Source: Okeania sp. SIO2F4
GTDB lineage: Bacteria; Cyanobacteriota; Cyanobacteriia; Cyanobacteriales; Microcoleaceae
Direction: 5' to 3'
Length of the DNA stretch: 32,144 nucleotides
Assembly (NCBI RefSeq): GCF_010672385.1
Contig: NZ_JAAHGT010000030.1
Span: forward strand, 1 to 32,144
The stretch's first letter is position 1; the number at the start of each line of letters is the position of its first letter. The notes beneath the pieces are model-generated. The model ran no database searches. It was not told the DNA's origin and saw nothing but the letters and a program-made list of their open reading frames with translations. Positions 940 through 32,144 of the stretch are shown one piece after another. The translations under genes and the position numbers were made by a program.

Positions 940-1510
940 TATTAAAAATAGTATAGGCAATAAAAATTTAATTTTTCATCAGGAAGATAGGAAAGTTTTT
1001 AGTTGAGGAAGTTAAAGAAAAAAAGGTGGTCCAATTGTAGATTTTATTGCTCAATAAGCCTGACTAATAAATAAGGTCTCAAGCCTCCCCTTCCAAGGGG
1101 ATAAAAAAGGAAAGAAAATTTCGGATTTCAAGCCTCCTGCTGAAGATAAAGGTACTGATAACTGTTAAGGCAGTTCCTCCGATAGGAGGCTAACTGATAA
1201 CTGAAATGACAAGCATATCTAAATAAATATCATATTTTATTGTTTACTATCAAAAAAAAATAAGCATTCAGTCAGCTATCAGCTAATTGCCTTTATCAGA
1301 GGCATTCTTATTAACAGATTCAGCAAAAATCATTTGGCTACAAATTCCTGAAAATTCCCTATTTGTCATCCCCGAACCTTCATACCCTAATATTAATGCT
1401 AAATGCTGACTTCGCTCGAGCTGAATGGTTACCAAAAAACAACTATAAATATTTTCATTATTCCCATAAATGCTAGGATAAAATTAGATAATTTACTAAA
1501 AAACAAACCG

Positions 1511-2551: not shown

Positions 2552-2734
2552 ATAAGCATTCAGCTATTAGCAGTCAGTTCTCAGCTTTATTAATGAATGA
2601 AGCAATCATTTCGTTTAATTTCTACAACATTTTCAACCAAAGAATTGAAGCATAATTAATGATAACCTTGATTTGCCAATTACAGGTAATGTAGCTAATA
2701 GCTGATAGCTAATAGCTGACTGCTGAATGCTTAC
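2552..2734. mobile_element. MITE-like element, family A copy 1, between converging genes
   Basis: The 183-bp sequence is bounded by TAAGCATTCAGC on the left and its exact reverse complement GCTGAATGCTTA on the right. Runs of the heptamer TAGCTGA and variants lie inside both arms. It starts 3 bp after the reductase stop and ends 4 bp before the xisI stop, so it fills the whole tail-to-tail gap. No convincing target duplication is visible. It may act as a terminator for both genes (inference). Confidence 0.6.
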
Positions 2735-2738
2735 AAAA

Positions 2739-3074
2739 TTAATTCACTGCAAACCCTGTATGAGGACGAATTTCTGGTGGATGAAACCCCAAGACAATTT
2801 TGCTTTTAGGAATACCTGCATTCACTAAATCTAAAGCTATTCCATCTTCCATTCCATCTTCGTAAATCCATATTTTATCATTGATAATTTCTAAGTGAAC
2901 GACGCAACCATGTACTCTTTTTCCCTTTAAATATCCCACAGTTAATAACAAATAATTTTTGTGGTCTTCACTAATAATAAACTTTCGTTCTAAGTTCCCG
3001 TAAGCATAGGGTAATTTGGCATATTCCCCTAGAATTTCAGTAATAATTTGATGATAATTATTTATGGTATCCAT
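2739..3074 (-). CDS. xisI: XisI family protein
   Basis: The 111-residue product matches the XisI family (fdxN element excision controlling factor) along its whole length, including the typical start MDTINNYHQII, the middle GYLKGKRVHGCVVHLEI, and the C-terminal VLGFHPPEIRPHTGFAV. In heterocyst-forming Anabaena, XisH and XisI are needed with the recombinase XisF for excision of the fdxN element. Here no recombinase or nif gene is seen, and the pair occurs widely in cyanobacteria without such an element, so the actual job is unknown. Its start lies inside the end of xisH (13-bp overlap) and AGGAG precedes it, so translational coupling is likely. Confidence 0.9.
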   Translation of the reverse strand: MDTINNYHQIITEILGEYAKLPYAYGNLERKFIISEDHKNYLLLTVGYLKGKRVHGCVVHLEIINDKIWIYEDGMEDGIALDLVNAGIPKSKIVLGFHPPEIRPHTGFAVN

Positions 3075-12188: not shown

Positions 12189-12296
12189 GATTATTCTTTT
12201 CAAGATTACAAATACTTAAGTTTGAGCGTAAATATAGCATTTCCGAATCTATGATTATTGTTTTTTTAGAGATTTCAATAATTACTGTAAGTATTC

Positions 12297-12438
12297 AGCT
12301 ATAACCCTGTAGGGGCGATTCGCCAATCGCCCCTACAATTATCTACCGACATGAAAACTGCTGTAATTATGACTCAATTATTAAAGTTTTTATCCAAAAC
12401 CACAAACTAATAGCTGATAGCTGACTGCTGAATGCTTA
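12297..12438. mobile_element. MITE-like element, family A copy 2, abutting uvrB
   Basis: The 142-bp element starts GTAAGTATTCAGC and ends GCTGAATGCTTA, with TAGCTGA heptamers inside the right arm and a perfect hairpin at 12319-12346 in its interior. Its right end is the uvrB stop codon (TAA on the minus strand). AATTAC occurs just outside both ends and may be a decayed target duplication. Confidence 0.6.
12319..12346. terminator. perfect GTAGGGG hairpin downstream of uvrB
   Basis: GTAGGGGCGATT pairs perfectly with AATCGCCCCTAC around CGCC. It sits within the family A element about 90 bp past the uvrB stop and would work on either strand as a strong stem. Confidence 0.55.
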
Positions 12439-14436
12439 AGAATTACCCACTAATTTATCCCGCAAATATTTAATTCTATCCCGCAATTTAGCTGCCTCTT
12501 CAAACTCTAAATTTTTCGCCGCTTCCTTCATCTGATTTTCTAACTTTTTAATCCACTCTGGCAGTTCCTCCAAAGACAACTCATCCACCTGTTCATAAAC
12601 CTCTTCCAACTGTTGAGAATTTAAACGGCGCGACACATCTAAAAACGCCAAAATTGAATTACTTTGTTTTTTCACAACAGGCTTCGGCGTAATATTATTC
12701 ATCTTATTATATGCCAACTGAATTCCTCGCCTTCTTTCAGTTTCATCTATGGCTTTAATCATACTATCTGTCAAATTATCAGCATATAAAATAGCCTGAC
12801 CCCGAACATGACGCGCTGCCCTACCAATAGTCTGAATTAAAGAACGTTCCGCTCGTAAAAATCCTTCCTTATCCGCATCTAAAATAGCTACCAAAGAAAC
12901 CTCTGGCAAATCCAAACCTTCCCTTAATAAATTCACTCCAATTAATACATCAAACTCTCCCTCTCGCAACGCCTGTAAAATCTCAATTCTCTGAATAGAA
13001 TTAATATCAGAATGCAAATAACGAACCTTCACATTTTGCTCCTGTAAATATTCAGTCAAATCTTCAGCCATCCGCTTAGTTAAAGTAGTAATTAAAACCC
13101 TCTCTTCGAGCTTAACTCTTTCCCTAATTTCACCCAATAAATCGTCAACCTGACCTTCAGTCGGACGCACAAAAATTTCCGGGTCAACCACACCAGTCGG
13201 ACGAATAATTTGCTCAACAATTCTATCCTCAGATTTTTCTATTTCCCAATCTCCAGGAGTAGCAGAAACCAAAATACATTGATTAACCTTTTGCCAAAAT
13301 TCCTCAGATTTTAAAGGTCGATTATCTGCAGCACTAGGCAAACGAAACCCATGCTCAATTAAAACTCTTTTCCTAGCTTGGTCGCCATTATACATTCCTC
13401 GAATTTGCGGAACAGTCACATGAGATTCATCAATAATTAATAACCAATCTTTCGGAAAATAATCAATCAAACATTCCGGCGGTTCCCCTGCTTTTCGACC
13501 TGCTAAATGCCGAGAATAATTTTCCACTCCATTACAATATCCCACCTCCCGCAACATTTCTATATCGTATCTACAACGCTGTTCCAAACGTTGAGCTTCT
13601 AATAACTTTCCTGTTTTTTCTAACTCCTCTAATTGCTCATTTAATTCCACTTCAATATCATTACAAGCCTCTTCCAATCTTTCTTCAGGAGTAACAAAGT
13701 GACGCGCCGGATATACATTCAAAGACTCCAAACTTTGAAGAATCTTTCCAGTTACAGGGTCAACATAACGAATAGCATCTATTTCATCCCCAAAAAATTC
13801 TACCCGAATAATTCTATCCTCATAAGCAGGTCCGATTTCCAAAACATCCCCCTTAACTCTAAACTTTCCTCTACCCAAATCTAAATCATTTCTACTATAT
13901 TGAACTGTCGCTAAATCTCTCAAAATTTGTCGTTGATTAATTTCTTCTCCCACTTCCAAAGAAATAGCAGCTTTTAAATATTCAGCAGGCATTCCCAAAC
14001 CATAAATACAACTAATCGAAGCCACAACAATTACATCTCGGCGCTCAAAAAGAGACCGAGTTGCCGAGTGACGCAACATATCAATCTCATCATTAATAGA
14101 AGCAGTTTTTTCTATATATGTATCTGTCACCGGAATATAAGCTTCCGGCTGATAATAGTCATAATAACTAATAAAATATTCCACAGAATTATCAGGGAAA
14201 AAATCCCTTAACTCATTACATAATTGAGCAGCCAATGTTTTATTATGAGCCAAAACCAACGTCGGTCTGCCAACATTTTCAATTACAGAAGCTATAGAAA
14301 AAGTCTTACCCGTACCAGTAGCTCCTAGTAATGTTTGAAAATTATGTCCAGCTTCAATATTAGAAGTTAATAGAGCGATCGCTTGAGGTTGGTCACCAGT
14401 AGGTTTAAAAGGAGCTTGCAAATAAAATTTTTCCAT
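12436..14436 (-). CDS. uvrB: excinuclease ABC subunit B
   Basis: UvrB is the damage-verifying helicase-like subunit of nucleotide excision repair; it is loaded by UvrA and recruits UvrC. The 666-residue product has Walker [10 protein letters not shown] (38-46), the beta-hairpin [12 protein letters not shown] (about 91-102), the DESH box ([14 protein letters not shown]), helicase motifs [11 protein letters not shown] and [12 protein letters not shown], and the C-terminal UVR motif that contacts UvrC ([14 protein letters not shown]). I place the start at ATG 14436 ([16 protein letters not shown]), the family's normal N-terminus; an ATG at 14550 adds 38 unrelated residues. It is probably monocistronic: uvrA and uvrC are not nearby. 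The stop codon coincides with the end of a family A repeat element. Confidence 0.97.
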
Positions 14437-14836
14437 GAAAATTTCAGAATCAATTGTATTATTATTTAAGCATTTTAGAATGCTGCACAAACAGCTTAAT
14501 GAATAATAACAAATCCGGTTATTATAGAACCCATTTGGTATCTTTACCAAGATTCAATTTTTTAGCAGGAGTTGTCCTTGAGAAAAAGCACTTGCAGAAA
14601 AAGATTGAAAAATTCTCCCTATCTCCCCTACTTTTAAGATTGGATTTTTCCCATCATAAAATCTTTCCATCTGTACTTCCTTAGTGGAAAATCACAAACA
14701 TTTTCATTTTATGAAGCTCCAAAAAAAAATGGCGTGTCAAAGGATTTTCGGTTGCATCCTCACGAAAATTGTGATATCTTTAATTTAGATGGGGTTACTT
14801 GCCTACATACATGACTTTTTATTCAACAATTTGTAG
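14437..14836. other. uvrB upstream region and left flank of the outer tnpB element
   Basis: No gene is supported here. A possible hairpin ATTTTCG...CGAAAAT lies near 14742-14767, and TTTAA occurs at 14779-14783. Either could relate to the unidentified left end of the outer IS element, but I could not fix that end. The uvrB promoter should lie in the first part, without a convincing match to a sigma-70 site. Confidence 0.4.
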
Positions 14837-15794: not shown

Positions 15795-17066
15795 ATGCTG
15801 ACGATGAACTACACCTACCGAATCTATCCAGATGCCAACCAACAGACTGAACTTTTGGATTGGCTTGAGACGTGTAGAGGCGTGTATAACTACGCTTTGC
15901 ACGAACTCAAAGACTGGATTGCTTCGCGATCTGGTCTGGTAGACAGGTGCTCGTTGGAGAAGGAGTACATCATTCCTGCCGATGAGCCATTCCCGTCTTA
16001 CCATCGTCAACAAAACAACCTGCCCAAAGCTAAGAAGCAATTCCCGCGTTTGGGCCAGGTGCATTCTCAGGTGTTGCAGACTACTATTCGTAGACTGCAC
16101 GACACCTGGGAAGCTTTTCAGAAGCGGGGTCATGGATTTCCGCGCTTCAAAAAGTTTGGTCAATTCAAGTCTTTTGTGTTTCCTCAGTTCAAAAGCAACC
16201 CCATCAACGGATTCGCTATCAAGCTACCGAAAATCGGGGAAGTGCCTATCAACCTGCATCGCCCCATCCCTGACGGATTCAAGGTAAAGCAGGTGCGGGT
16301 ACTGTCCAGGGTGCGAGGAACCCAATGGTATGTGGTCGTCACCATTGAATCGGAGGTATCGGTTCCCGATGCGCCCGTGCATGGTCGAGCGATTGGGATT
16401 GACCTGGGATTGGAGCGATTCTTGACGGCTTCCGATGGCAGCTTCCAGGAGCGTCCTAAGTTTTTCAAGTCGAAGCAGCGCAAGCTGAAATTGCTGCAAC
16501 GCAGAGCGACGCGAAAACAAAAGGGGTCTCAAAACTGGGAGAAGGCGCAAATCGAAGTTGCCAGAATGCACCATTGGATTGCAAACTGTCGTAAAGACTT
16601 CCATCTGAAGACGGCTCACAAACTTTGTGACCAAGCACAAACTATCTTTGCAGAAGACCTCAATACCAAAGGGTTGACGCGAGGGATGCTGCGAAAAGAT
16701 TGTGTGGATGCTGCCTTTGGGCAATTCTTGTCTCTAACGGAATGGGTGTGTTGGAAACGAGGTGTCTACTTCGCTAAGGTCAACCCCAACGGCACCAGCC
16801 AAACCTGCCCTAACTGCTTTGCGACGGTCAGCAAAGGGTTGGAAGTCAGAGCGCATGATTGTCCTGAATGTGGGTATCGAACGCATCGTGACCATGCCGC
16901 AGCAGAGATGGTTTTGCATCGTGGACTAGAAAACGTAGTAGCCCAGGGACTCTGGGGAACGGAAACAGCCTGTCAAGTCGGTCTGTCGGGGGTCTATGAC
17001 CTAGATAAGTGGCGTGGGGCAGGAATACCCAATTGCGAGATTGGGAAGCCCGCGCTGTACCCGTAG
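15795..17066 (+). CDS. tnpB: TnpB, RNA-guided nuclease of an IS200/IS605-group element
   Basis: The 423-residue protein is full length. It has the N-terminal TnpB/OrfB region (YRIYPDANQQTELLDWL), the central FPRFKK motif, and a split RuvC-like nuclease with Asp203 (IGIDLGLERF), Glu287 (FAEDLNTKG) and Asp366 (THRDHAAAEM). A zinc ribbon is formed by Cys338, Cys341, Cys356 and Cys359. TnpB uses an RNA derived from the element's right end to cut DNA next to a target-adjacent motif, which helps the element persist after excision. All catalytic residues are present, so activity is plausible. No TnpA transposase is encoded here, so movement would need one in trans. The outer copy is a diverged relative, not a duplicate. 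Confidence 0.92.
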   Translation: MLTMNYTYRIYPDANQQTELLDWLETCRGVYNYALHELKDWIASRSGLVDRCSLEKEYIIPADEPFPSYHRQQNNLPKAKKQFPRLGQVHSQVLQTTIRRLHDTWEAFQKRGHGFPRFKKFGQFKSFVFPQFKSNPINGFAIKLPKIGEVPINLHRPIPDGFKVKQVRVLSRVRGTQWYVVVTIESEVSVPDAPVHGRAIGIDLGLERFLTASDGSFQERPKFFKSKQRKLKLLQRRATRKQKGSQNWEKAQIEVARMHHWIANCRKDFHLKTAHKLCDQAQTIFAEDLNTKGLTRGMLRKDCVDAAFGQFLSLTEWVCWKRGVYFAKVNPNGTSQTCPNCFATVSKGLEVRAHDCPECGYRTHRDHAAAEMVLHRGLENVVAQGLWGTETACQVGLSGVYDLDKWRGAGIPNCEIGKPALYP

Positions 17067-28305: not shown

Positions 28306-29626
28306 TTGTATAATACTCCCTGAAATTAATTATCAACTAATTTCAAGATGCTTTCAAAAAACTTAATTTTTGTGAAAATAAATTATTATATTTACTGGAA
28401 TAAATCTTATAATCTATGTTCAATTGTGATTTAAAAGATATTAATAAGAGTAGTTCAAGCCAAATCTTTGAGATAATTGTAGTAAATTTAACTACTCTAA
28501 AATATTATTTATATTTGTATTTACAACCAAATATTCACGGCGGAATAGATATCCAAGACGGAAGAAATTTGTCAAATATAGGTTACACCCTTATAGGTCG
28601 ATTATAGTCTAGAATCACTTAGCTTTATATGAAGATTTGGTAAAGAATTTGAGAGTAGGGCAGATTTTTTTTATGATAAATATACTGAGATACTTTCAAC
28701 ACAAATGTCTATAGTTGAGTGTTAATACGGATAATTTGTAATCAAATAATCACTAATAACCTATTTTTCACTATAAATATATAGGGGTTCTAATATTAAT
28801 GAGGTATGGTATTTTTTTCTCTTCCTATTCCCTAAAATCCAAAAATTTTATACATTAATAGAGTGAACAAGGCTATAAGCAATTTGTCGTAAAATTGAAC
28901 AAAAATTATAATTTGTGAGTAACATTAACTTTAGCAATTACTTCATAAACTAATGTATGAAGTTTGATATTCAAATTTAACAACTGGATTATTTTTGATA
29001 AAAGTTATTCAGCTTTGCTCTCCTGGTTAATAACAGAAATAAATATTATATATAGTTTTTTTTAATAATTATAAAATAAGTAGAAAAGAGAATAAGAAAA
29101 ACTAATTCTAACTCCGTTTATAGTAAACAAATTTTATTTCAATTGTTTGATTAGGATACCTGCAATTTTCTATCTTTTGAAAGGTCAATTCAATAGTAGT
29201 TGATATTTTGTAATATTATAGGTACTTTCTAATCGGGAAATTTTAAAATTTATACTGTTTAGATAAATATTTGCGACAAATCTATATATACACAGTTTTG
29301 TAACATTTTTTAATCAAATTGGCACTGTATATGTAGACATTTTATTGTTAATGTGTAAGTATTCAGGTCCTATGGAAAAGCCTATAAATCTTGATGGATC
29401 AGTATTTCCAGCAATTTCCTTCAAAATCCTATTCTCAATTAAAGATTGCTACAAGCCTTTATTTTCCTGATTATTGAGAATGAGGCTTTTAAATTGCTGA
29501 GTCATTCGTTTTCAGAAGTCTCTCTATAACTGGGTTTGAGATACCTGAATCCTTACGTTAATGTAGAAAAATCTTGATTAATGTAGCAAAATAATAATCA
29601 CAGAAATCAGAGCAACAGAGGATAAG
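28306..29626. other. 1.3-kb gene-free AT-rich interval
   Basis: Two genes are divergent across it (27073 minus, 29627 plus). A 63-codon frame at 28416 lacks a ribosome binding site and coding character. An inverted repeat ATTCTCAAT/ATTGAGAAT (about 29431 and 29476), and GTAAGTATTCAG near 29355 that recalls a family A end, are the only structures I noticed. Long regulatory leaders or an RNA gene could hide here, but nothing is supported. Confidence 0.4.
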
Positions 29627-31143: not shown

Positions 31144-31205
31144 AGATGCTAGGTAGGAGGTTTTAAGTAGTAGGTAACTCTTAATGCTACGACCATACTA
31201 AATTC

Positions 31206-31434
31206 GTAAGCATTCAGCTATTAGCATTCAGCTAGCCTCCTGCGGAGGAACTGCGTTAACAGCTGTTAAAATAATCAAGCAAAGACTAAGATTAGCTGAG
31301 AGAAATATTTCATTTCCTGCGGAATACTGCGAAACATATTTCACTCCTTGACTACTAATTCCTTCTTCCCAGGTAACGAGTTAATAACTCATAGCTGATA
31401 GCTGATAGCTGATAGCTGACGGCTGAATGCTTAC
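31206..31434. mobile_element. MITE-like element, family A copy 3, with 8-bp target duplication
   Basis: The 229-bp element is bounded by GTAAGCATTCAGC and its exact complement. CTAAATTC lies immediately outside both ends (31198-31205 and 31435-31442), a perfect 8-bp duplication. TAGCTGA is repeated in tandem in the right arm (about 31391-31419). The interior contains a CCTCCTGCGGAGG hairpin that matches sequence near 1173-1193. No coding frame is present, so it would need a transposase in trans. Confidence 0.85.
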
Positions 31435-32144
31435 CTAAATTCAGTTTATCTTATTCCCAATCCTATTAGTTATTGCTCAGATTATTTGATAAAATTAGTA
31501 TTAGACAGTCATCATAAATTTTAGATATTGACTTAAAAAAATAATTAAAAATTTCCACCACCGGGCAGCAAATTTTCCTATAAAAATAACCTTAAATGGT
31601 TAGTTATGTGGGAGCAATATTAACTCATATTAAGCTTAAGTAATAACAATTTCATAAAATGTTGCTAAGTAGTCACGCAAAATTAATTATACATACTCTC
31701 AAAGTTAAAAGCAGATTTTTTAAAGGTAATTGATTTTACCTAGGCACTTATAGCAGTGAGCTCTGGTATATTTGCAGTCCAAACCCTCTAAAGTAATCCT
31801 GAGTCAACCAAAATTGTAAATACATCAGCGCACTTTGCTATGTATTGACTTTACTGGTAGGTGGAGCTGATAAATGTAAATATCTTAAATAGTTTTGTAC
31901 AGGATTTTAGTCTCACTATCTTTTGAAAATTTGGTATGATTTTTCTAATATCCACACTCTAAAAAAGCTACAAACAAATATTTTTGACCAGTAATCAAGT
32001 AGGTGGGTGTAAAAAAATATAAAACCAATAGGCAGATGCCAGATGAGCTCAGAGAAATTGTTTAATTACTATCCACAGTTATTACGTTCCGGTTTTCCCT
32101 CTCAACAATCATTTTCTATTTAATTTGACCTACCTACTTAAGTA
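31435..32144. other. gene-free right end of the window
   Basis: AT-rich sequence with no supported gene, hairpin or repeat beyond the end of the family A element. It may be the leader of a gene outside the window. Confidence 0.4.

Follow-up and report, generated by a model that had tools for sequence, protein, structure and literature searches.

A cyanobacterial MITE with heptamer arms and IS66-type ends, and its probable derivation from a small transposon carrying an S23 gene

The element and its relatives in the window

Within the window (the whole stretch of DNA that was analysed, 32,144 nt), positions 31206-31434 hold a short non-coding element, the parts of which are given in Table 1. 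Its 13-bp ends form a perfect inverted pair and the 8 bp on either side, CTAAATTC, are an exact duplication; both features had been noted in a preliminary description of this DNA and are exact on direct reading. The left and right arm are 83% complementary, and a long stem is predicted for the element (RNA fold, z = -5.3). Two short nested inserts are present, at 31233-31260 and about 31311-31335. Such inserts (e.g. CCTCCTGCGGAGGAACTGCG and TTTCCTGCGGAATACTGCG) are also seen in the related loci L215, L049 and L048 and appear to represent a further, very small type of dispersed repeat.

The 13-mer has 12 matches in the window at no more than two mismatches, against 0.8 expected. Two further copies had been proposed, and both are recovered: one at 2552-2734 and one at 12287-12439 (12297-12438 in the preliminary description). 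The former has one mismatch in the left end, lacks a target duplication (flanks CTTAGAAT/AAAATTAA) and is placed between an aldo/keto reductase gene and a XisI gene. At the orthologous reductase locus this repeat is absent in four sister species, in the sense that it is missing just past the reductase gene, though contiguity of the right flank is not seen in every case. The XisI-like gene itself (2739-3074, minus strand) has many related copies across the genus according to flank queries.

The copy at 12287-12439 is flanked by the octamers TAATTACT/GAATTACC; uvrB (12436-14550, minus strand) takes its stop codon from the terminal TTAA of this copy. The flanks of the fourth copy are alike at six of eight positions, but are A-rich; its end overlaps the predicted start, at 1403, of the aldo/keto reductase ORF. 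Finally, the window contains a related IS66-type MITE in which heptamer arms are absent and the duplication GTTAATGT is complete (8/8). A gene for an IS605 OrfB/TnpB-like protein is found at 15795-17066 (plus strand).

Table 1. Positions of the element, its parts and its relatives in the window
Feature	Position	Strand	Remarks
Target duplication CTAAATTC, left copy	31198..31205	.	Direct reading; identical to right copy
MITE, 229 bp; non-coding, two short inserts nested inside	31206..31434	+	
Left terminal inverted repeat GTAAGCATTCAGC	31206..31218	+	Direct reading
Left arm: terminal repeat followed by the in-phase heptamers TATTAGC ATTCAGC	31206..31234	+	
Right arm: terminal inverted repeat preceded by TAGCTGA heptamers	31392..31434	-	
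Right terminal inverted repeat GCTGAATGCTTAC	31422..31434		Direct reading
Target duplication CTAAATTC, right copy	31435..31442	.	Direct reading; exact match to left copy
Second copy	2552..2734	-	Interior is the 3' end of an S23 gene; S23-gene profile E = 2.8e-16
Third copy, decayed ends	12287..12439	.	One mismatch per end; duplication 6/8
Fourth, degenerate copy	1260..1432	.	Ends ATAAGCATTCAGT / GTAACCATTCAGC
Related IS66-type MITE	29355-29556 (29347..29564 with duplications)	.	Ends GTAAGTATTCAGGT / GTAAGGATTCAGGT

Copy number, target duplications and empty sites

The host genome is a 10.18-Mb draft in 1512 contigs. The exact 13-mer occurs in it 300 times (153 + 147), against none for the reversed control; the copy statistics below rest on the subset of loci that was extracted. 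For short inward-facing pairs, the flanking octamers are identical in 26 of 35 cases and agree at seven of eight positions in four others (30/35 with at least 7/8), and across these 35 pairs flank matching is seen at the 8-bp length only. Taking all loci of the host genome and its relatives together, 123 non-redundant elements have a duplication of at least 7/8, with a median length of 186 bp; 217 of the 297 unique ends fall in such pairs. The 13-mer ends are also present in records named Okeania, Hydrocoleum and Trichodesmium.

Empty sites were sought in sister species with queries in which both flanks are joined and one octamer is kept. They were found for four host elements: no gaps interrupt the junction-spanning alignments of L053, L063 and L050, and the alignment of L013 is ungapped at the junction itself. 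Some sites are common to species, e.g. L006, both flanks of which match in G003 at a distance of about 195 bp.

The family thus combines short length, a non-coding interior, near-perfect inverted ends, many copies, a constant duplication length and empty sites. We class the element as a MITE because of its inverted ends, copy number, 8-bp duplications and precise empty sites, and that the family of 31206-31434 is mobile is certain for practical purposes. The preliminary description had proposed non-autonomous transposition in place of a mere tandem repeat, and the many duplicated flanks together with the sister-species empty sites bear this out: other copies do carry duplications, and orthologous sites can be empty. 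Its view of the heptamers as arms of a transposing unit holds as well; in addition, they run in phase with the terminal repeat. Of 246 arms, 215 have an AGC exactly 7 bp on from the terminal repeat (+7) and 181 have one at +14. Given this 7-bp phase, the heptamers resemble the inner part of the terminal repeat copied in tandem, and the arms may add putative transposase-binding sites.

No transposase gene was found adjoining the unpaired ends that were screened. Several widely spaced pairs were considered as carriers of a transposase and rejected: L046 and L045 (ends 898 and 1207 bp apart) have no duplications and contain ordinary genes, and the 917-bp pair L003 and the 550-bp pair L029 contain nested repeats and no transposase.

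The S23 cassette and the candidate transposase

A longer form of the element exists as a cassette of about 430 bp with the same ends and heptamer arms, which carries an S23/IVP gene (PF05635). Copies with a coding or decayed-coding gene are found in the host genome and five relatives, and the PF05635 profile has 14 matches in the host genome. The host copy L202:1161-1591 (431 bp) is bounded by TTAAGCATTCAGC and GCTGAATGCTTAA; a GGAGG motif precedes its S23 frame, in which one late frameshift is seen. A like arrangement is observed in G002 (L214, with an open frame matching PF05635 at E = 8.9e-39) and G013 (L215), and also in G001 and G004 (L228 and L222), where it represents one shared old insertion. 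In G010, a 430-bp element (L068/L216) has the same ends, an exact 8/8 duplication and a broken S23 gene; among the coding copies with this family's ends it is the only one with a clean 8-bp duplication (L214 shares 5 bp, L202 none). The S23 frame of the coding copies reaches with its end into the right arm. Pairwise dN/dS between these copies is 0.20-0.70 (the minimum, 0.20, is for L214/L215), which points to coding constraint during part of the history of S23; several copies are decayed. The S23 protein also gave a match to bAvd that is weak and below threshold. A seemingly clean empty site at an S23 locus by an Obg-like gene was discarded: the sister species retain S23 3' remnants, and the site reflects loss.

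Remnants of this gene can be recognised in the MITEs themselves: many of them, the copy at 2552-2734 included, retain ends of the S23 gene. The S23 core is matched by 30 of 123 interiors at E<1e-2 and, after iteration, by 49 of 121 at E<1e-3, with no matches among shuffles; for about half of the interiors S23 is not recognisable. The match of 31206-31434 is weak directly (E = 0.002) and clear with the MITE models (6e-7 at the first iteration). Clustering of the interiors is confounded by the arms. Read by eye, the deletion junctions differ among several MITEs, which suggests repeated shortening of the parent. Overall, the MITE is likely to stem from the S23 cassette and not simply to be a shrunken IS, a parentage absent from the preliminary description.

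For candidate enzymes we searched 2.5 Mb of sequence for 14-bp end pairs, 0.7-3.5 kb apart, with exact 8-bp duplications. The matches with MITE-like ends are IS66-family (PF03050) elements of relatives: a 1820-bp element with a broken ORF in G005 of the same genus (L179, duplication 8/8), a 1547-bp element with a 498-aa frame in G021 (L176, also 8/8) and several 1493-bp copies in G043 (L175, L184, L188 and others). The ends of L179, L176, L175, L188, L193 and L195 read GTAAGGATTCAGG or GTAACYATTCAGG, with duplications of 8/8. IS66 ends of the same genus and family are identical to those of the MITE at 11-12 of 13 positions and depart from them at positions 6 and/or 13; the Okeania copy L177, ending in GTAAGCATTCAGG, agrees at 12/13. 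An IS66 with exactly GTAAGCATTCAGC ends was not found in the sequence searched (host and relatives). The preliminary description had named IS66, along with IS6 and IS256, as a family that could supply the transposase and had called for an IS with the same terminal sequence. The near-identical ends and 8-bp duplications fit IS66, the one of the three that was sought by family, and the terminal sequence was traced to within one base (12/13 at best), with no exact match.

Judged from these ends and duplications, an IS66-family transposase is the likely mover of the MITE. The draft host genome yielded no intact IS66 transposase, only two partial PF03050 matches; these remnants (L031/L032) are without GTAAGC, and L031 has a decayed IS66-type end, CCAAGGATTCAGG. 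Since the host has only these two remnants, our claim is of IS66-type ends that would be mobilised likewise, and not of descent from a resident IS66. No IS66 match was obtained in G002, G003 and G013, though 210, 221 and 123 exact ends are present there; the enzyme may have been lost, missed in the drafts, or belong to another family.

S23 genes are also found on other elements. For 25 S23 loci outside the family (same genus, family and order), the inverted exact flank matches have a median of 20 bp against 8 bp for 253 control ORFs (one-sided p about 3e-15), and these flanks have 7-bp periodicity. A phylum sample tested against shifted controls gives p = 2e-4 for 12 loci of the order and p = 4e-10 for 16 more distant ones; all these tests concern best-scoring loci, with controls not matched for intergenic length. 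S23 genes are flanked phylum-wide by inverted arrays of 7-9-bp units. In distant groups (L385-L413) the period of these arrays is often 8 bp.

Other genera have IS66-type elements with an S23 gene: L411/L414 in G101 (610 bp, intact 121-aa S23 ORF, ends GTAAGAATTCAGG/GTAAGGATTCAGG, exact duplication GATTTTAA) and L427 in G123 (419 bp, one stop in the S23 gene, exact duplication ATTTATGT). In G207, an S23-only element of about 547 bp occurs in two copies (L453:1377-1923 and L454:1399-1945) with ends GGGAGC(A/G)A(C/T)GCGATTTTGTGA and 8-9-bp duplications. In G179, S23 is the second ORF of a 1.9-kb ISL3-family IS (PF01610, E = 2.6e-67), present in seven nearly identical copies (L444-L450) which indicate recent activity; six have exact 8-bp duplications and the seventh is one base off. 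As IS66-type, GGGAGC-type and ISL3 elements all carry it, S23 appears as a recurrent companion of 8-bp-duplicating elements.

Origin of the element and comparison with known systems

In our reading, which we give a probability of about 0.78, the MITE is a deletion derivative of a non-autonomous S23 transposon of about 430 bp with IS66-type ends, moved in trans by an IS66 transposase. The parent would consist of 13-bp IS66-type inverted ends, in-phase heptamer arms and just one gene, encoding an S23/IVP four-helix-bundle protein (PF05635), and internal deletion would have produced the MITE. An IS66-family DDE transposase acting in trans would recognise the ends, and insertion at a staggered cut would create the 8-bp duplications. 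S23 would then be cargo or an accessory factor and not the recombinase.

It might be argued that an IS66 shortened by internal deletion gave rise to the element as an ordinary IS66 MITE, in which S23 genes are later chance passengers. The IS66-like ends would fit, as would the MITE at 29355-29556, which is of IS66 type without heptamers or S23. Nevertheless we consider this unlikely: remnants of S23 occupy corresponding places in many MITEs from several species, the S23 frame of the coding copies continues into the right arm, and the combination of S23, heptamers and IS66 ends recurs in other genera. Alternatively, the S23/IVP protein itself (perhaps with host enzymes) might recognise the heptamer arms and move or amplify them, the IS66-like ends being a relic or convergence. 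The phylum-wide position of S23 genes between inverted arrays of 7-9-bp period, the 8-9-bp duplications of the S23-only GGGAGC-ended elements and the genomes with hundreds of MITEs yet no IS66 match speak in favour of such a role. Against it, no nuclease or recombinase fold is known for S23, and the relatives with solved structures, 2gsc and 2rld, are uncharacterised. In addition, Okeania genomes with up to 658 ends hold no close S23 relative (the best is 58-59%), and the S23 gene of G179 is carried inside an IS having its own ISL3 transposase. All in all a moving role of S23 seems quite improbable.

Static STRR-type tandem repeats, which change by replication slippage and are not mobile, would explain arms of heptamers varying in number. 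The 8-bp duplications at scattered sites and the sister-species empty sites with a single octamer already refute this view, which keeps virtually no probability. A broader idea, tentative and to us rather doubtful, is that S23/IVP genes, each between inverted arrays of 7-9-bp units, form widespread small mobile cassettes that can use several unrelated 8-bp-duplicating systems (IS66-type ends, ISL3 in cis, GGGAGC-type ends). S23 would then aid spread via the arms or RNA, and heptamer repeats and rRNA intervening sequences would be two products of such cassettes.

The IVP/S23 genes known so far come mostly from the intervening sequences of rRNA genes. That MITEs are mobilised by related ISs and that IS66 ends come with 8-bp duplications is already known. 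In the open-access literature we found no paper on the 13-mer, nor any on IS66-type MITEs that contain S23 or on heptamer arrays enclosing S23 genes; as far as this literature shows, the S23 parent, the heptamer phase and the recurrence of S23 on several element types are new. S23 genes can travel on small transposons, and here they are joined with heptamer repeats in one transposing unit for which we have defined ends, target duplications and empty sites as well as a candidate family of transposases. Because both occur in this one defined unit, the movement of S23 and the spread of the heptamers become testable questions. The element also explains many non-coding insertions in large genomes of the Trichodesmium/Okeania type.

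The MITE shares with the IS66 ISs of relatives the 13-bp ends of the form GTAAG-ATTCAG- and the 8-bp duplications. Unlike them it has no transposase gene, differs from most at positions 6 and 13, and has heptamer arms with an S23 gene or its remnants inside. There is some likeness to REPINs, which RAYT proteins are thought to move or amplify: in both cases a small gene family is flanked by inverted short repeats, and short non-coding elements share the ends. The S23 MITE differs by its 8-bp duplications and IS66-type ends, and S23, unlike RAYT, is not known to be an HUH transposase.

As in the cyanobacterial STRRs, among which TAACTGA heptamer repeats are known (PMC4679880), 7-bp tandem units are dispersed between genes. 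For repeats of this kind reported from cyanobacteria and Beggiatoaceae, no mechanism of spread was evident (PMC4679880); in the MITE, unlike in STRRs, the heptamers make up the arms of a unit that transposes and keep in phase with its terminal repeat. The 23S rRNA intervening sequence of Coxiella burnetii, with 428 nt, an S23p ORF and complementary borders (PMC4990558), is the closest described counterpart of the S23 cassette and resembles it in size (430-445 bp for most coding copies), in its one S23/IVP gene and in its borders. We do not class the cassette as an intervening sequence, because the examined copies of cassette and MITE are located in the gaps between protein genes or at the ends of such genes, and not in rRNA genes. 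The cassette is further set apart by its terminal inverted repeats, its 8-bp duplications and its hundreds of deletion derivatives.
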